Shown piece after piece: positions 5,280 through 12,775 of a stretch of DNA of 47,637 nt. How positions within the stretch are numbered: the stretch's first letter is position 1; each line of letters begins with the position of its first letter. The notes under the pieces were generated by a model. The model was not told where the DNA came from, did no database searches, and saw nothing but the letters and a program-made list of their open reading frames with translations. The translations under genes and the position numbers were made by a program. Source of the DNA: Phyllobacteriaceae bacterium UBA1940 (GTDB lineage Bacteria > Pseudomonadota > Alphaproteobacteria > Rhizobiales > Rhizobiaceae). The stretch spans positions 1 to 47,637 of the forward strand of contig DDFA01000030.1 of assembly GCA_002336975.1 (NCBI GenBank), written 5' to 3'.

Positions 5280-6199
5280 GAGTGTCCGAGCCCGCCTCCG
5301 AACCCGGCAGCCAGGTCGCGGCCTTGCGCGAAAGGCTCGCAACCCTGGTCGAGATCGGCCGCCACCCGCTGGCGCTGGAGGACCGGCAAAACCTGCCGGG
5401 CGCGGCGCGCACCGAGGCGCTGACGTTCAGGACGGCGCAAGGCGAGCGGGTCGACGGCCGGCTGACGCGGCCCGAGGGGGCGGGACCGTTCCCGACGATC
5501 CTTTATCTGCATGCCCATGGCGGCCGCTACGAAATCGGGGCGCGCGAACTGATCGACGGGCGGCCGGCGCTGGCCGGCCCGCTCGGCGCCGAACTGGCGC
5601 AACGCGGCTATGCCGCGCTGGCGATCGACATGCCGGCGTTCGGCTCGCGCCAGGCGCCGGGCGAAAGCGCGCGCTCCAAGGCGCTGCTGTGGCGGGGCCG
5701 GTCACTCGCCGCCCAGATGCTCGGCGAGCAGCACGCGGCGCTTGAATGGCTGACGCAACAGGACTGGGCCGACAGCAGACGCATCGGCCTCTTCGGCCTG
5801 TCGATGGGGGCAACGCTGGGCTACTGGCTGGCGGCGGTGGAGCCGCGCGTCGCCTGCGTGGCGCATCTGTGCTGCTACGCCGATTTCAACGTGCTGATCG
5901 ACGCCGGCGCGCACGATCTGCACGGCATCTACCTGACCGTGCCCGGACTGCCGGACGTGGCGTCAAACGGCGCGATCGCCGGACTGGTCGCGCCGCGGCC
6001 GCAGTTCATCGGCATCGGTGACCAGGACCCGTTGACGCCGCCGGCGGCCGTGGACGTCGCGCTGGCCGAAACGCGCGCCGCCTACCTGGCGGCTGACGCC
6101 GCCGACAGGCTGACGCTGCACCGGGAGCCGGCGTCGGGCCATGTCGAGACGCCGGCGATGCGGCGGGCGATGCTGGCGTTTTTCGACAAGGCGCTTTAA
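5276..6199 (+). CDS. Alpha/beta hydrolase (dienelactone-hydrolase-like)
   Basis: A 307-residue cytoplasmic hydrolase. A serine nucleophile sits in GLSMG (S176). HAHGG (79-83) forms the oxyanion region, an acidic residue lies in GDQDPLTP (about 249-251), and a histidine in ASGHVETP (H289), giving a full Ser-Asp-His triad. The TTG at 5276 overlaps the TGA of the upstream gene (TTGA); a GTG at 5282 is an equally possible start. No signal peptide is seen. Members of this group act on esters, lactones or acyl groups, and the sequence does not show which. Translational coupling suggests a job shared with the exported DUF900 hydrolase. Confidence 0.75.
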   Translation: MRVSEPASEPGSQVAALRERLATLVEIGRHPLALEDRQNLPGAARTEALTFRTAQGERVDGRLTRPEGAGPFPTILYLHAHGGRYEIGARELIDGRPALAGPLGAELAQRGYAALAIDMPAFGSRQAPGESARSKALLWRGRSLAAQMLGEQHAALEWLTQQDWADSRRIGLFGLSMGATLGYWLAAVEPRVACVAHLCCYADFNVLIDAGAHDLHGIYLTVPGLPDVASNGAIAGLVAPRPQFIGIGDQDPLTPPAAVDVALAETRAAYLAADAADRLTLHREPASGHVETPAMRRAMLAFFDKAL

Positions 6200-6337
6200 C
6201 GCCATCGAGCCGTCTTCCGGGCGTCGATGCAGACCGGAGGGGACACGACCGCAGGCCGGCCCCATGCGGTGGTTTGAGCCATGGTTTCTCCGACGCCCAA
6301 AAACCATCATTCGTGACAGGACACGCGATGTGTCTAC

Positions 6338-6440
6338 TGCATCGGCCCGAAAATCGGAATCGATTTTCGAAAGCCCGGTGCAGCAGATTCAAAGTGTTAG
6401 AGCGGCCATTACGCGTCCAATTGGACGCGCGGCGCTCCAA
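6338..6440. repeat. RIME-like palindromic intergenic repeat
   Basis: Two successive imperfect hairpins are seen. The first (6338-6382) pairs TGCATCGGCCCGAAAATCG with a right arm ending in CCCGGTGCA. The second (6396-6440) has outer arms TTAGAGCG/CGCTCCAA and an inner GCGTCCAATTGGACGC. This layout, with the wording CGAAAATCG-GAAT-CGATTTTCG followed by TTAGAGCG, is one I recognise as a family of intergenic palindromes repeated in Rhizobiales genomes (RIME-type elements). Only one copy is in the window, so repetitiveness is from memory, not shown here. Confidence 0.6.
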
Positions 6441-6459
6441 CCAATCTCGTCGCGCCGAG

Positions 6460-6488
6460 TTGACAATGTCGATTCACCTTCATAGTCT
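6460..6488 (+). promoter_or_regulatory. Candidate promoter of the amino-acid ABC operon
   Basis: TTGACA (6460-6465) is a consensus -35 box. After a 17-nt spacer comes TAGTCT (6483-6488), a weak -10. It lies about 50 nt upstream of the binding-protein ATG and abuts a palindrome that could block it. Confidence 0.5.
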
Positions 6489-6502
6489 GTACATGTATAC
6501 AG
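6487..6502. promoter_or_regulatory. Candidate GntR operator
   Basis: CTGTACATGTATACAG has inverted arms CTGTA/TACAG around a 6-nt centre. This matches the TGTA-N6-TACA style of operators bound by FadR/VanR-type GntR regulators. It overlaps the predicted -10/+1 region of the operon that itself encodes such a GntR protein (8236-8862), so negative autoregulation is a natural reading. Confidence 0.5.
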
Positions 6503-6537
6503 GAATATCGGCTTTACCGACATTGAAGGGGAAGTTC

Positions 6538-7581
6538 ATGAACCGGTCCACTCTTTCTGCGGCGTTGCTTGGCGTCGTTTCGCTTGCGGCGACATCGGCG
6601 GCCAGCGCCGGCGCGGTGTTCGACGAGATCAAACTCTCCGGCAAGCTGATCTGTCTCGTCAGTCCGAGTTCTCCGGGCTTTTCCGTGCCCGACAGCACCG
6701 GCGTGTTCCAGGGCTTCAACGCCGATTTTTGCCGCATGGCGGCGACCGCCATCCTCGGCGACGCCAAGAAGGCGGACATACGCGGCGTCGGCTTCTCCGA
6801 TTCGCTGAAGACGCTTACCTCGCGCCAAGCGCACATGGCGTCGCGTTCGGTCACCGAAACCGGTACGCGCTCGGTCGACCAAGGCCTGTCATTTGTCGCG
6901 ACGACGCTCTACGATGGACAAGGTTTCATGGTTGCGAAATCGCTTGGGGTCAAATCCGCCAAGGAACTCAAGGGCGCGACGATCTGCGCCGAGGACGGCT
7001 CGACGACCTTGCTGAACATCGCCGACTGGTACGCAGCGCAAGGCATGGAATACAAGGTGGAGAACATCGCCGACAAGACCGCGCGCCTTCAGGCCTTTTT
7101 CGCCGGCAAGTGCGACGCCTACGCTTCGGACGTGACGGCGCTCGCGGCCGACCGGCAACTGGCGAAGAACCCGAAGGACTACGAAGTCCTGCCCGAGGTC
7201 ATCTCCGCCGAACCGCTGACCCTGGTGGTCCAGCCGGACGATACGCTCGAGAAGGCGGTGCGCTGGGGGTTTGAGGTGATGCTCAACGCCGACGAATATG
7301 GCGTGACTTCGGCCAATGTCGACAGCATCGTCGCCGACCTCGGCAACCAGCCGAAAGCCGTTCAACGCCTGTTCGCCAAAGACGGCGCAACCGCGGACAT
7401 GGCGGCCAAGATGAACATCCCCGCCGACTGGGCCTATCAGGTCATCAAGCAGGTCGGGTCCTACGGCGAGGTGTTCGACCGCAATCTCGGCGCGGCGACG
7501 CCGTTCGGACTGAAGCGTGAGGGCAGCCAGAACGCCTCGGTCAGCAATGGCGGACTGATGTACGCCTATCCGATCCGGTAA
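6538..7581 (+). CDS. aapJ: Amino-acid ABC transporter substrate-binding protein, AapJ/BztA-like
   Basis: A periplasmic binding protein of 347 residues. The start ATG at 6538 follows AAGGGGAAG and gives a signal peptide cleaved after residue 24 (ATSAASA). Mature features match general L-amino-acid binding proteins: FDEIKLSGKLICLVSPSSPG, STGVFQGFNADFCRMAATAI, and the C-terminal NGGLMYAYPIR, which corresponds to the GGLxYAPPxR ending of AapJ. Domain II contains FFAGKCDAYASDVTALAADR. It heads an operon with two phosphatase-like proteins, a GntR regulator and two permeases. The exact ligand is unknown; some positions are changed from standard AapJ, so a specialised substrate is possible. Confidence 0.88.
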   Translation: MNRSTLSAALLGVVSLAATSAASAGAVFDEIKLSGKLICLVSPSSPGFSVPDSTGVFQGFNADFCRMAATAILGDAKKADIRGVGFSDSLKTLTSRQAHMASRSVTETGTRSVDQGLSFVATTLYDGQGFMVAKSLGVKSAKELKGATICAEDGSTTLLNIADWYAAQGMEYKVENIADKTARLQAFFAGKCDAYASDVTALAADRQLAKNPKDYEVLPEVISAEPLTLVVQPDDTLEKAVRWGFEVMLNADEYGVTSANVDSIVADLGNQPKAVQRLFAKDGATADMAAKMNIPADWAYQVIKQVGSYGEVFDRNLGAATPFGLKREGSQNASVSNGGLMYAYPIR

Positions 7582-7643
7582 TCCGCGATGCCGCGCCGGA
7601 GACAGGCGCCGCCGGGCCGGCCGTCGCGCGCCAGGAGCGCGCG

Positions 7644-8258
7644 ATGACCGTCCGATCGACCGACACCGACATCGAGCTCACGTCAGTGCGCGCGTATGTC
7701 GACTGTCCCGGCGGCGGCGCGTTTGTGCTGGTGGGCGCGCCGGGAGTGGCCGTCACCGTCAGAGGCGATGTCTGGTTCAACCCGGAAAGCCGCGACCTGA
7801 CCTTCGACGAACTGGTGGAGCTCAAGACCGACCTGATCGTCTATCTGGCGTGCGATGACGATGGATTGACCGGCCAAAGGCTGGTGTTGAGAGAGCAGGC
7901 GCGGAGGCGAGGAATCCGTTTCGTCGCCCTGCCGATCCGGGATTTCGGGACGCCGGGCGAGGCCTGGATCAGAGCCTGGCGCAGGATCAAGGATCAGGTC
8001 CAGGCGCGCCTCGACAATGGACGTTCGATCGGCCTTTGCTGCAGCTACGGCGCGGGGCGGAGCGGCACGGTGGCGGCCTATGCGTTGATGGAGCGCGGTC
8101 TGGCGGCGGCCGAGGCCCTCGAGAAAGTCAGAGGCAACTTTCCTGAGGCGATCGAGAGCCCGGTTCAGGAAGCCTGGCTGCGGTCGCAGCACCCGACCTG
8201 GACTGAAGGCGATATGGGGACATGGAACATTGACGATGCAGACATCAGAAAGACGTAG
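7644..8258 (+). CDS. Protein-tyrosine/dual-specificity phosphatase-like protein 1
   Basis: 204 residues; ATG at 7644 with CAGGAG upstream. The C-terminal half carries a CX5R phosphatase P-loop, CSYGAGRSG (C133, R139). The residue before the cysteine is Cys instead of the usual His. IRDFGTPG with D100 resembles the general-acid (WPD-type) loop. The first 60 residues form a separate, unrecognised beta-rich segment. Such enzymes hydrolyse phosphotyrosine/phosphoserine, phosphoinositides or inositol phosphates; the substrate cannot be told here. The gene lies 62 nt after the binding protein and overlaps the GntR gene by 23 nt, so it is part of the transport operon. A second phosphatase with the same DFGTP motif follows the regulator. 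Confidence 0.75.
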   Translation: MTVRSTDTDIELTSVRAYVDCPGGGAFVLVGAPGVAVTVRGDVWFNPESRDLTFDELVELKTDLIVYLACDDDGLTGQRLVLREQARRRGIRFVALPIRDFGTPGEAWIRAWRRIKDQVQARLDNGRSIGLCCSYGAGRSGTVAAYALMERGLAAAEALEKVRGNFPEAIESPVQEAWLRSQHPTWTEGDMGTWNIDDADIRKT

Positions 8259-8862
8259 ACCCGCGAGCGCCGACGACATGCTGGATGAGTTGCGGTTCCG
8301 CATCTGCGTCACCGACCCCGACATTCCGATGATGCTGCACGAAGGCAAACTGGCGCAGGAATTTGGCGTCAGCCGCACGCCGGTGCGGCAGGTGCTGCAA
8401 AGGCTTGCGTTCGAGCATCTGCTCGAAACTCGATCGGGGGTCGGCACCGTGGTCAGTCCGCTGCAACGGGACCAGCTCGACCTGCACTTCCTGCTGCTGT
8501 CCGACCTGCTGCGGTTGTGCGAACGCTGCTGTGCGCCGGCCCTGACGGCGCCGGCCCGCGTCGGGATCGCCACCGTCGCCGATCTTGCAAGGACAGACGG
8601 ACCGGACGCGGCCGCCCGCTGCTTCACGGCGCGCGCGCAACTGCTCGAGCTGGTGTCGGGCCTGCTGGTCGACCCGATCATTGCCGAAGCGCATGCGGCG
8701 ACGCACTGGCGCGCGATCCGCTGGCGCGTGCATGCCGCGCGCTCCAACCCCAGCGCCGCGACGGATGAGCTTCGGACGATTTCCGACAGGCTGGGCATGG
8801 CCGGAACGCCGGCGGCGGTGCTTGAGACGCTGGCGGGCGAAGCCCAACCGGTCAACTTTTAG
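8236..8862 (+). CDS. GntR family transcriptional regulator
   Basis: A 208-residue regulator with an N-terminal winged HTH (about residues 10-73). The pattern KLAQEFGVSRTPVRQVLQRL and the wing ETRSGVGTVVSP are diagnostic of the FadR-type GntR subgroup. The C-terminal helical part (about 80-200) resembles a reduced ligand-binding FCD domain. The ATG at 8236 is preferred to the TTG at 8230. The gene is embedded between two phosphatase genes of an amino-acid ABC operon, overlapping the first and 1 nt from the second, so it probably senses the transported compound. The palindrome at 6487-6502 is its likely target. Confidence 0.85.
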   Translation: MQTSERRRPASADDMLDELRFRICVTDPDIPMMLHEGKLAQEFGVSRTPVRQVLQRLAFEHLLETRSGVGTVVSPLQRDQLDLHFLLLSDLLRLCERCCAPALTAPARVGIATVADLARTDGPDAAARCFTARAQLLELVSGLLVDPIIAEAHAATHWRAIRWRVHAARSNPSAATDELRTISDRLGMAGTPAAVLETLAGEAQPVNF

Positions 8863-8863
8863 C

Positions 8864-9385
8864 ATGGAAGACAAGCCATTCATGCGGCCGGTGCGGATGC
8901 CGCCGTCGATTGGCGGCGCGTTGTGGCTCGGCCCGATGCCGGGGCGGTTGCGTCCGCTCGACCGCGACCTTGCGGAACTCGACGCACAGGGCGTCACCCA
9001 TGTGCTCAGCCTGCCGCCGCTGCCGGAGATCCGGCAAAAGTCACCGGAGTTCGCCGCCAGGATCGACACCATGGACAACCCGGCCATCATCCGGCTTGAA
9101 ATCGCCGATTTCGGAACACCCGACGATTTCGTCGCGTTCAACCGGAAGATTGCGGAAGCCGCGGGCATATTGCGCCAGGGCGGCAGCATGTTCGTCCACT
9201 GCGCCGCGGGCATCGGGCGCACCGGCACGGCGGCCATGAGCATCCTGCTGCATCTGGGAATGGGAGAGAACGAGGCCGAAAGGCTCATCCTCGAGGCCGG
9301 GTCAGGTCCCGAGACCGAGGCGCAAAAACGACTGGTGTCACGCATCGCCGAACGGATCGCCCGCAAACGCGGGACGGATGCCTGA
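8864..9385 (+). CDS. Dual-specificity phosphatase-like protein 2
   Basis: A 173-residue protein with the canonical phosphatase signature HCAAGIGRTG (H112, C113, R119). The acid-loop candidate ADFGTPDDF (D82 or D87) lies about 30 residues upstream, as expected for the CDKN3/dual-specificity fold. The N-terminus (GGALWLGPMPGR, then VTHVLSLPPLPE) is typical of small bacterial phosphatases of this type. All catalytic residues are present, so activity is likely. It starts 1 nt after the GntR stop and ends 2 nt before the permease gene, so it is translated with the transporter. No kinase gene is nearby. Confidence 0.82.
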   Translation: MEDKPFMRPVRMPPSIGGALWLGPMPGRLRPLDRDLAELDAQGVTHVLSLPPLPEIRQKSPEFAARIDTMDNPAIIRLEIADFGTPDDFVAFNRKIAEAAGILRQGGSMFVHCAAGIGRTGTAAMSILLHLGMGENEAERLILEAGSGPETEAQKRLVSRIAERIARKRGTDA

Positions 9386-9387
9386 CA

Positions 9388-10569
9388 ATGGCCGAACAGT
9401 TGCACCCGAGACAGGACGAAATCCGCCCGCCGCGCGAGGGCTTCGCCATCGGCTTGCCGGATCTCGCGCTGGTCGCCGGTTTGCTGGCGTTCTTCGGGGC
9501 GATCGCGTTCAACGTCTACTCCAACATGGTCGCGGCGGGCATCCGGCCGGGTTTCGGCTTCCTGTGGCAGCAGGCCGGATTCGACCTGAGTGAAACGCTC
9601 ATCCCTTACGACGCGGGCGACACCTATCTGCGCGCGATCGCAGCGGGCGTGGCCAATACGCTTGTCGTCGCGGCGGCGAGCCTCATGATCGCCTGCCTTG
9701 TCGGGTTGTTTGCCGGCCTGGTCAGCGTCAGCCCGAGCCGCGCCGCCAGACTTCTGGCGCTTGGCTATGTCGAACTGTTCCGCAACCTGCCGAAAATCCT
9801 GGTGTTGCTGGTGATCTTCGTCGTTGCGGTGAACGGATTGCCGGCGATCCGGCAGGCGTTCCAGGCGGGGCCGCTGCTGATTTCCAACCGGGCGATCTAT
9901 TTGCCGATCCTGGTCGACGACCCGCTCAACCGATGGTGGCTGGCGTTGTCGATCCTGTTGACGGTCCCGGCGATATGGCTGTGGGTCCTGTACGCGGCCG
10001 GGCGGCATGCCAGAACCGGCCGGCGTGGGCCGGTCCTGTCCGTCTCGCTCGCGCTCGCGGCCTTCATCCCGTTCGCAGCGGCATATGCGCTCGACGCGCC
10101 GCTGGGGCTTTCCTGGCCCAGGCTGGAGGGTTTCGCGATGCGCGGCGGGGTGTCGTTTTCGACGCAGTTCTGCACCGTTGCGCTGGCGCTGGGCCTCTAT
10201 CACGGCGCACAGATCGCGGAGGTGATCCGCGGCGGCATCGAGGCGATCCCGCGCGGCCAGATCGAGGCGGCGGCTGCACTGGGCCTGAGCGGCGGCCAAA
10301 GGACGCGGCTGATCGTCGTGCCGCAGGTCCTGCGCGCCGTCGTCCCGCCGCTCAACAACCAGTTCGTAAACCTGCTGAAAAATACGTCGATCGCGATCGC
10401 GGTGGGCTATTCCGACCTGATGTCGGTGGCCGGGACCTCGATCAACCAGACTTTTCGGCCGCTGGAACTGATGGTCGTCACCATGGCCATCTACCTGGCG
10501 ATGTGCCTGGCGTTGACCGGGATCGTCAACAACTGGAGCAGCAGGCTCCGCAAACGCGAGGGCAGATAG
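9388..10569 (+). CDS. aapQ: Amino-acid ABC transporter permease, AapQ/BztB-like
   Basis: An inner-membrane permease of 393 residues with multiple hydrophobic segments. The cytoplasmic EAA loop IRGGIEAIPRGQIEAAAALGLSG contacts the ATPase. The His/Glu/polar amino-acid family signature YVELFRNLPKILVLLVIF and the large insert between membrane segments (RHARTGRRGP) are characteristic of the long AapQ type instead of the short HisM type. NLLKNTSIAIAVGYSDLM near the C-terminus also fits AapQ. It pairs with the permease beginning 4 nt downstream. No ATP-binding subunit is encoded in this operon. Confidence 0.9.
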   Translation: MAEQLHPRQDEIRPPREGFAIGLPDLALVAGLLAFFGAIAFNVYSNMVAAGIRPGFGFLWQQAGFDLSETLIPYDAGDTYLRAIAAGVANTLVVAAASLMIACLVGLFAGLVSVSPSRAARLLALGYVELFRNLPKILVLLVIFVVAVNGLPAIRQAFQAGPLLISNRAIYLPILVDDPLNRWWLALSILLTVPAIWLWVLYAAGRHARTGRRGPVLSVSLALAAFIPFAAAYALDAPLGLSWPRLEGFAMRGGVSFSTQFCTVALALGLYHGAQIAEVIRGGIEAIPRGQIEAAAALGLSGGQRTRLIVVPQVLRAVVPPLNNQFVNLLKNTSIAIAVGYSDLMSVAGTSINQTFRPLELMVVTMAIYLAMCLALTGIVNNWSSRLRKREGR

Positions 10570-10573
10570 GGCC

Positions 10574-11668
10574 ATGACAGCCGTGGACGCCGCCGTCGCC
10601 CGCCCGCCGGAAACCAGGCTGTCGCCGTGGGAACGGCTGCGCCGGTCGCCCGGAGCGAGCCTGCTGTCGGCTGCCAGCATCGCACTGCTCGCCTGGATCG
10701 GCTGGGTCGTCGCGGATTGGCTGCTGCTGTCCGCAGCGGCGCCGTGGGAGCCGGCGGCACGTTGCGCCGAGGCGACCGGCGCCTGCTGGCCGTTCTGGGT
10801 GGAGAAGACGCGCTTCATGCTGTTTGGAACCTACCCGTTCGACCAGCAATGGCGGCCGGCGGTCGTGTCGGCCATGTTGATCGCGCTTTCGGTGGCGACC
10901 GGCCAGATGGCGGTCAGCGGCCGCTGGATCGACCCGAGGCTGTTCGCCGGCGCCTGGGCGCTGGCGTCGGTCGCAAGCTTTGCGCTGATGGGCGGCGGGA
11001 TCGCCGGCCTCCCGGAGGTAGTCACAACGCGCTGGAACGGACTGCCGATCCTGTTGATGCTGTCGACGATTGCGCTGGCGCTGGCGTTGCCGCTCGGCGT
11101 GCTGCTTGCGCTTGGCCGCTACCAGACGCGCTACCGGCTGATCGGGCGGTTCTCGGCAGTCTATATCGAGGCGATGCGCGGCGTGCCGATGGTGACGCTG
11201 CTGTTCGTCGGCGTCTTCGTGCTGCCGCTGATGATGCCCAAGGGAACGTCGATCGACCCGATCACCGCCGTGCTGATCGCCCTGATCTTCTTTCACGCAT
11301 CCTATTTTGCCGAAGACGTGCGCAGCGGTCTGCTGTCGTTGCCGCGCGGCCAGCACGAAGCGGCGTCGGCTCTCGGTCTGGGGTTCTGGCAAACCGCAAG
11401 ACTGGTGCTGTTGCCGCAGGCCATCGACCGCGCAATGCCGGCGCTGGTCAACTCCATCATCGGCGCCTACAAGGACACGTCGCTGGTCGTGGTGCTGGGC
11501 CTGTTCGATCTCAACGCAACGGCGCGCATGGCGTTCAGCGAAGTCCAGTGGGGCAACCAGGCGCTGGAAGCCTATGTGTTCGTCGGCGCGTGGTTCCTGG
11601 TGTCCTGCTCCTACCTGTCGTGGGTGGGCCGCAGGCTGGCGGCGAAAGCGCCGGGACGGGCCCGGTAA
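10574..11668 (+). CDS. aapM: Amino-acid ABC transporter permease, AapM/BztC-like
   Basis: A 364-residue inner-membrane permease. It carries the EAA loop RSGLLSLPRGQHEAASALGL, the family segment YIEAMRGVPMVTLLFVGVFVLPLMMP, and IGAYKDTSLVVVLGLFDL, all characteristic of AapM. The N-terminal cytoplasmic tail with PWERLRRS and the long periplasmic first loop rich in Trp and Cys (CAEATGACWPFW) are also typical. This is the last gene of the operon. The gene that would normally follow, aapP encoding the ATPase, is missing; 9 nt further on lies the end of a convergent sugar-transporter ATPase gene of a different family. Confidence 0.9.
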   Translation: MTAVDAAVARPPETRLSPWERLRRSPGASLLSAASIALLAWIGWVVADWLLLSAAAPWEPAARCAEATGACWPFWVEKTRFMLFGTYPFDQQWRPAVVSAMLIALSVATGQMAVSGRWIDPRLFAGAWALASVASFALMGGGIAGLPEVVTTRWNGLPILLMLSTIALALALPLGVLLALGRYQTRYRLIGRFSAVYIEAMRGVPMVTLLFVGVFVLPLMMPKGTSIDPITAVLIALIFFHASYFAEDVRSGLLSLPRGQHEAASALGLGFWQTARLVLLPQAIDRAMPALVNSIIGAYKDTSLVVVLGLFDLNATARMAFSEVQWGNQALEAYVFVGAWFLVSCSYLSWVGRRLAAKAPGRAR

Positions 11669-11677
11669 CGACGAGAA

Positions 11678-12775
<1,098 letters not shown>

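Follow-up and report, generated by a model that had tools for sequence, protein, structure and literature searches.

Two CX5R phosphatases and a GntR regulator in an Aap-like importer operon of a Phyllobacteriaceae genome: conservation, a predicted operator and a possible role

The window analysed here comprises positions 1 to 47,637 of contig DDFA01000030.1 from Phyllobacteriaceae bacterium UBA1940 (assembly GCA_002336975.1), and between its positions 6538 and 11668 lies an operon of six plus-strand genes that joins an amino-acid-type ABC importer to two CX5R phosphatases and a GntR regulator. The first gene (6538-7581, 347 aa) encodes an Aap-like substrate-binding protein (SBP; PF00497) whose N-terminus resembles a signal peptide by eye. 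It is followed by the phosphatase PTP1 (7644-8258, 204 aa, PF22785, with 46 homologues besides itself), the GntR regulator (8236-8862, 208 aa, PF00392), the second phosphatase PTP2 (8864-9385, 173 aa, PF22785 and PF22784), the AapQ-like permease 1 (9388-10569, 393 aa) and the AapM-like permease 2 (10574-11668, 364 aa). The Pfam scores exceed their cut-offs for the SBP (SBP_bac_3, 31.4 vs 26.4 bits), for both permeases (BPD_transp_1 of PF00528, 54.7 and 62.8 vs 26.4) and for both phosphatases (PF22785, 30.3 and 36.1 vs 27), and the permeases also match TIGR01726, the HEQRo 3-TM type (51.4 and 60.2 vs 42.2 bits). No ATPase gene lies inside 6538-11668. An earlier sequence-only reading by a model had described this order of genes and the missing ATPase, and both are borne out by Pfam, NCBIfam and the open reading frames. 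Its statement that gaps or overlaps of 1-2 nt follow the first gene is nearly exact; the gaps from SBP to permease 2 are, in order, 62, -23 (an overlap), 1, 2 and 4 nt.

Since a search that starts from a phosphatase presupposes it, I anchored one survey on the SBP. At E <= 1e-110, 8 of 297 genomes of the order are positive, namely the own genome and seven others, and in all seven a phosphatase lies beside the SBP or the permeases. In contrast, none of 20 stretches (~4 kb) around canonical Aap/Bzt SBPs, drawn from genomes that had been searched for the SBP, holds a phosphatase (within ~1.5 kb) or a GntR, in agreement with the earlier claim that phosphatases stand outside the known Aap/Bzt systems. 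On these comparisons, the phosphatases very likely belong to the importer system and form a conserved part of this SBP clade. Three of the seven loci (L197, L198, L199) show the type II arrangement described below, with operators. A fourth, L202, combines a related GntR and two phosphatases with two operator sites of lower score (17.0 and 15.6). The remaining three (L200, L201, L203) carry a phosphatase called PTPb, have neither such a GntR nor any operator site scoring at least 13, and in their genomes no orthologous GntR was found (no match in G572, weak matches only in G731 and G701). At L203, a histidine-kinase-like frame is seen by eye ~0.8 kb beyond permease 2.

A second survey was anchored on PTP1, with gene calls from tblastn and maps of open reading frames. 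It employed a profile of 35 PTP1 rows, and the loci that it gave depend on one pattern, [CSH]Cx[YF]GAGRSG, which biases them to that loop; relatives with other loops (the PTP and PTPb of L178/L187 and the PTPb of L200-L203) were found via the SBP or the class sample, and a single-sequence scan of the genome contigs gave no match. PTP1 orthologues were found at 35 loci in named genomes, of which 16 have an Aap-like importer, 15 a divergent GntR|PTP1 pair, one a PhnCDE-type setting, and three no GntR on the stretch. The six type I loci, in Ensifer and Pseudochrobactrum, have the order of the window; four of them (L008-L011) are complete, the contig of L012 ends after PTP2, and L007 yielded no permease 2. 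The same exact six-gene order occurs in the plasmid collection: among 31 records with a PTP1 match, the 3 in which the match spans 80% or more of the protein have the complete order, each with PTP1 annotated as 'hypothetical protein'. The order is therefore not confined to this genome, as it would have to be for the sequence-only reading to fail on that point: it stands at four other loci and on three annotated plasmids. In the ten type II loci, from Phyllobacterium, Stappia, Roseibium, Salipiger, Martelella and others, GntR is transcribed in the opposite direction, away from permease 1-permease 2-SBP-PTP1 (the L025 stretch ends short of GntR). The 15 type III loci, mostly in Rhodobacteraceae, consist of divergent GntR|PTP1 on a stretch without such an importer. 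Altogether, GntR lies on the same stretch at 31 of the 35 loci, and for the remaining four (L018, L025, L034, L041) it was found at another place in the genome; in the genomes of L018, L034 and L041, the three loci whose stretch shows PTP1 without GntR, that GntR has a second PTP1 beside it.

PTP1 profile matches by themselves were rejected as evidence of the module, with 41 of 385 class-wide genomes (own included) matching at E <= 1e-15. Among 20 phosphatase stretches taken from family searches, only L178 has the SBP or the GntR of the module, and the other 19 are without an operator score of at least 13; L173 shows one operator match with 4 mismatches, and in L183 a single TGTATACA stands apart from the phosphatase. 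The phosphatase family at large is common, the module rare.

The regulator itself meets PF00392, the winged helix-turn-helix (wHTH) family, with 47.2 bits vs 27, and its relatives keep the SRTPxRQ helix in the alignment. The FCD domain (PF07729) gave no Pfam match in it at E <= 0.01. Its AlphaFold2 model (pLDDT 94) shows the wHTH followed by an all-helical second domain of FCD-like fold, and among the best PDB matches are AlkR/VanR (9isw, TM 0.69), Atu1419/VanR with and without DNA, McbR and PmiR; the Atu1419 chains reach TM 0.41-0.51. According to PMC7797058, the VanR-type Atu1419 binds 5'-ATGTATACAT-3', using Arg45 and Glu34. The VanR-group FCD regulators (Atu1419 of Agrobacterium fabrum, AlkR) share with the GntR of the window the wHTH with SRTPxRQ, the all-helical C-terminal domain and, going by the predicted operator of the latter, the core TGTATACA, whereas this GntR lacks the Pfam FCD match and has few invariant C-terminal residues: W158, R159 and R162 in 17 rows, and R159 alone in 19. 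From fold and helix it looks built to work as a VanR-type repressor, although Pfam does not place it formally in FCD.

A conserved palindrome points to where this regulator may bind. The motif TACCTGTATACAGGTA starts 44-67 bp 5' of the SBP start in all nine type I relatives (6 loci and 3 plasmids), and in the type II loci it is found both 5' of permease 1 and 5' of the SBP, in 9 of 9 each, L025 being left out because of its cut contig. All 27 of these sites have at most 4 mismatches, and 23 at most 2. The window carries TACATGTATACAGGAA at 6490-6505 (no strand assigned), with 2 mismatches to TACCTGTATACAGGTA and a score of 25.7, and this is its sole site scoring at least 10; in 19 control stretches (234,992 positions), no site reaches 13. 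A matrix made from 21 distinct sites was applied to 19 held-out PTP1 promoters (the rows W and L178 stand outside the 19), and 11 were positive at p <= 0.006 against shuffles, the near copies L026 and L027 being counted twice among them. Two more are marginal (L020, p = 0.022; L029, p = 0.032), and in six (L015, L019, L024, L031, L033, L036) no operator above chance lies 5' of PTP1. Of these, L031 and L033 carry a site shortly after PTP1, and L019 and L024 the variant TGTGTACA at that place.

Just 5' of the site in the window is a promoter-like element on the plus strand (6460-6488), composed of TTGACA (6460-6465), a 17 nt spacer and TAGTCT (6483-6488). In 10 of 10 type I promoters, window included, TTGACA stands at the same distance 5' of the operator. 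A strict promoter consensus scan misses 6460-6488, and the -10 element of the window is poor, with 3 of 6 matches. The predicted operator covers the presumed transcription start of the operon promoter, a position that suggests repression. While the palindrome TGTATACA is conserved at the promoters, binding of GntR there is a prediction; because of the shared operator, GntR is likely the operon's own regulator, as had been proposed from the sequence.

As a search pattern on its own in whole genomes, the operator was of limited use: at 2 mismatches or fewer it occurs 18 times, in 9 of 20 genomes, and the reversed control 8 times, in 6 of 20. By my own matching of places, 16 of the 18 sites lie at a module locus or on a Phyllobacterium contig with one, and the other two, one within a giant repeat gene (L102) and one close to replication-type genes (L103), are probably due to chance. 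The idea that the operator controls the canonical bzt operon where the importer is missing was also considered and found unsupported, as the 14 stretches L059-L072 are without a site except one 4-mismatch match in L070.

Both phosphatases have the P-loop and the DFGTP acid loop that had been noticed in the sequence, and thereby the CX5R(S/T) loop and general-acid aspartate of the PTP/DSP superfamily. In PTP1, CSYGAGRS at residue 133 and DFGTP at residue 100 give Cys133, Arg139 and Asp100, which are invariant in 35 aligned PTP1 rows. In PTP2, CAAGIGRT at residue 113 and DFGTP at residue 82 give Cys113, Arg119 and Asp82, the former two invariant and the last at least 90% conserved in 29 PTP2 rows. 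The PTP fold is seen in the model of PTP1 (pLDDT 89, best PDB match E 5e-9), and for PTP2 it is assigned by Pfam only. The folds nearest to the PTP1 model are ShufPTP, TkPTP, KAP and VHZ, with PRL and Cdc14 also near. The atypical dual-specificity phosphatases KAP (CDKN3), VHZ (DUSP23) and TkPTP and the PF22785/PF22784 families have the loop, the acid aspartate and the fold in common with the pair described here, which differs from them in that its members belong to two distinct clades, both linked to an importer and a GntR. In a tree of 54 rows, 27 PTP1 rows are split from 6 PTP2 rows with support 100/99, and PTP1 and PTP2 therefore are, by this tree, two independent recruitments of separate descent; a tandem duplication is rejected on the same split. 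Sisters of PTP2 (P0058) matched only the own genome among the 297. PTPb, a third kind unlike either, is placed next to permease 1 or else between the SBP and permease genes (L200-L203, L187) and is perhaps a further independent recruitment; its row M_L187_b has a very long branch and an unsure placement in the tree.

On the importer side, the SBP is 59-84% identical to its own clade and 37-44% identical to 20 canonical Aap/Bzt SBPs, so that by identity values it falls outside the canonical AapJ/BztA. Its closest solved relative by sequence is PDB 4z9n (E 7e-64). Compared with the 20 canonical SBPs, the clade (28 rows) keeps R103, T106, R111 and D198, of which I take R111 and D198 to be the alpha-carboxylate and alpha-amino contacts of HisJ/LAO, and it has 42 conserved positions specific to itself, several of them near the kept motifs (S104, G109, T110, A151, E152, S155, L158). 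The kept R111 and D198 together with the 42 clade-specific positions suggest an alpha-amino ligand with a side chain different from the canonical one. The system resembles the Aap/Bzt importers (AapJQMP, BztABCD) in its family 3 SBP, its two long AapQ/AapM-like permeases and the kept R111 and D198, but its SBP belongs to a separate clade, and the operon in the window has phosphatases and a GntR and lacks the cognate ATPase gene. An ATPase of the same type does stand in the operon right after PTP1 at three of the ten type II loci (L017, L025, L032). In the own genome, contig C13 holds two permease genes followed by an AapP-type ATPase gene, whose product shares 81% identity with the ATPase encoded directly after PTP1 in the Phyllobacterium phosphatase operon. 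The ATPase must come from elsewhere, as had been foreseen, and this canonical one could serve the importer.

GC content does not mark the operon out, for with 62-69% (1-kb windows, 6000-12000) it is close to its surroundings. Comparison with congeners is what sets it apart: in four of four congener stretches (L226-L229), the matches to the flanking hydrolase and ugpC genes are 17-23 nt apart (counted by matched residues), and these stretches give neither a blastn match (E 1e-8) within 6200-11677 nor a tblastn match to the SBP (E 1e-10). By this comparison the operon is therefore an accessory whole-unit insertion of ~5.5 kb (6200-11677, no strand assigned) between the hydrolase gene and the UgpC-type gene; no direct repeat was seen at its two ends. 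PTP1 is found in none of 6 congeners. A neighbouring gene has a close relative in 4 of the 6 (81-84%) and one at 44% in a fifth, and in this respect the contig agrees with the genus. The own assembly has a completeness of 81% and a contamination of 5%. The next gene 3' of the operon (11678-12775, minus strand) encodes a UgpC/MalK-type ATPase, and beyond it on the same strand sugar-importer-like genes are seen by eye. An 857-aa open frame antisense to the operon (8245-10818, minus strand) is taken as a GC-rich shadow frame.

The regulator, the phosphatase and the operator also occur in other settings. At importer-less loci, several of them of type III, an operator-like site just 3' of PTP1 lies in or near a promoter-like stretch leading into a putative non-coding RNA (ncRNA), with candidates at L026 (10636-10860), L039 (10624-10870), L031 (10586-10800), L033, L019 and L024, and further candidate sites at L219 (9369), L220 (8579) and L221 (7138, minus strand). 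Their 3' ends look terminator-like by eye, and a strict scan of L026 listed neither promoter nor terminator. The L026 stretch 10650-10860 folds 5.4 SD better than shuffles (z -5.4), and Rfam gave no family at seven loci at gathering score (L014 and L029 among them, which are not candidates) nor, by E-value as well, at L031 10540-10860. A small protein stands behind a second operator-like site at the importer-less loci L030 (10734-11108, without a Pfam match), L035 and L040 (weaker site), with L013 and L014 as probable members assigned by eye. Operator or module lies beside type I secretion genes in Phyllobacterium (L099, 12385; L101, 8060), in G415 (L187, 4858; L178) and in Mangrovicoccus (L222); giant repeat proteins, presumably RTX-like and in G415 MARTX-like, adjoin in the Phyllobacterium and G415 settings. 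At L018 (4722-10537) and L034, PTP1 with its own operator-like site follows TRAP-type transporter genes (by eye) and an acetamidase/formamidase-family gene. Finally, in a Loktanella metagenome-assembled genome (L015, 333-5650), GntR, PTP1 and a PTP2-like gene stand with PhnC/PhnE/PhnD-like genes, including a PhnD-type SBP (PF12974, E 2e-64), and with two operator-like sites (3 and 4 mismatches). The SBP and permeases of the window are unrelated to those of the PhnCDE phosphonate importers, and three other places with PhnD relatives lack phosphatases.

I tentatively favour the explanation of a mobile, self-repressed importer: the compound that it takes up and to which the regulator responds would also be the target of the phosphatases, this substrate being what I infer. 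GntR would act as repressor at the operon promoter, the SBP would capture an amino-acid-like compound, and the permeases would draw on the AapP-type ATPase of the cell; GntR would then be lifted off the operator by the compound or its phosphorylated form, and the cytosolic phosphatases would strip phosphate from that compound, so that it can serve as a nutrient or so that the signal is reset. The ligand, or its phosphorylated form, is proposed as substrate because it is the one thing that importer and regulator plausibly share, and it would explain that a phosphatase is kept with the importer without the regulator (three of seven loci) and with the regulator without the importer (15 of 35). 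Several observations weigh against this explanation. Those same 15 loci have PTP1 and GntR on a stretch without such an importer, and as no SBP of the window clade was found in the 13 of 15 type III genomes searched (best <=44% identity), PTP1 does not need a window-type importer. The second SBP copy in Phyllobacterium (L100) has an operator, and no phosphatase or permease was found adjoining it. In the SBP I recognised no signature of phosphate binding. The link to a phosphonate-type importer at L015 is a single case, relatives of its PhnD occurring at 4 places in 3 of 385 genomes, and the 3 places examined are without a phosphatase. KAP, VHZ, PRL and Cdc14 act mostly on proteins, and the likeness of the PTP1 model to them counts here since proteins are their usual targets. 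The more specific idea of the sequence-only reading, import of a phosphorylated amino acid or small phosphoester, may find hints in L015 and in the clade-specific ligand region of the SBP, but the 15 GntR and PTP1 loci without such an importer speak against it.

Nearly as likely as the self-repressed importer is a signalling module: PTP1 would dephosphorylate a protein, which may be GntR, a kinase or some other regulator, and the GntR-phosphatase pair would have several outputs, with the importer as only one of them. GntR and PTP1 form the most constant pair, in three gene arrangements, the genes beside or behind the same operator vary from importer to putative ncRNA, small protein and type I secretion genes, and proteins are the main substrates of the nearest folds; against this, three of the seven SBP-anchored loci keep a phosphatase by the importer with no orthologous GntR nearby, and with none (one genome) or a weak one (two) in the genome. 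A bolder and rather unlikely account is one in which GntR would answer a phosphorylated amino-acid-like compound and control the phosphatase that destroys it, a small-molecule write/erase circuit wired, in different Alphaproteobacteria, to importers of different fold classes, ncRNA and type I secretion. That the phosphatases instead regulate the transporter, by removing phosphate from the permeases, from the shared ATPase or from some PII/PTS-like partner, with the orphan permeases competing for AapP, seems less probable still: the operon lacks an ATPase while one is available in the genome, and a phosphatase accompanies SBP or permeases in 7/7 SBP-anchored loci, yet the three type II loci with their own ATPase keep the phosphatase, and 15 of 35 loci have PTP1 without such an importer. 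A mere chance neighbourhood of unrelated genes swept together by transfer would suit a patchy accessory insertion (PTP1 in 0/6 congeners), but it is hardly credible when the same partners recur in different orders in many alphaproteobacterial genera with a shared operator, when a phosphatase is present throughout the SBP-anchored sample (7/7) and when the negative control gives 0/20.

No description of this gene set was found among the titles and abstract starts listed from one open-access library, most subscription papers lying outside that scope, and in passages of a paper on AapJ2 of Brucella (PMC5874993) the words phosphatase and GntR are absent. With a compact unit, a predicted operator and a precise empty site, the ligand, the effector and the phosphatase substrate are directly testable. 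If the favoured explanation is true, a clade of annotated 'amino acid ABC transporters' would have a ligand other than assumed, and its phosphatases would point to that ligand.

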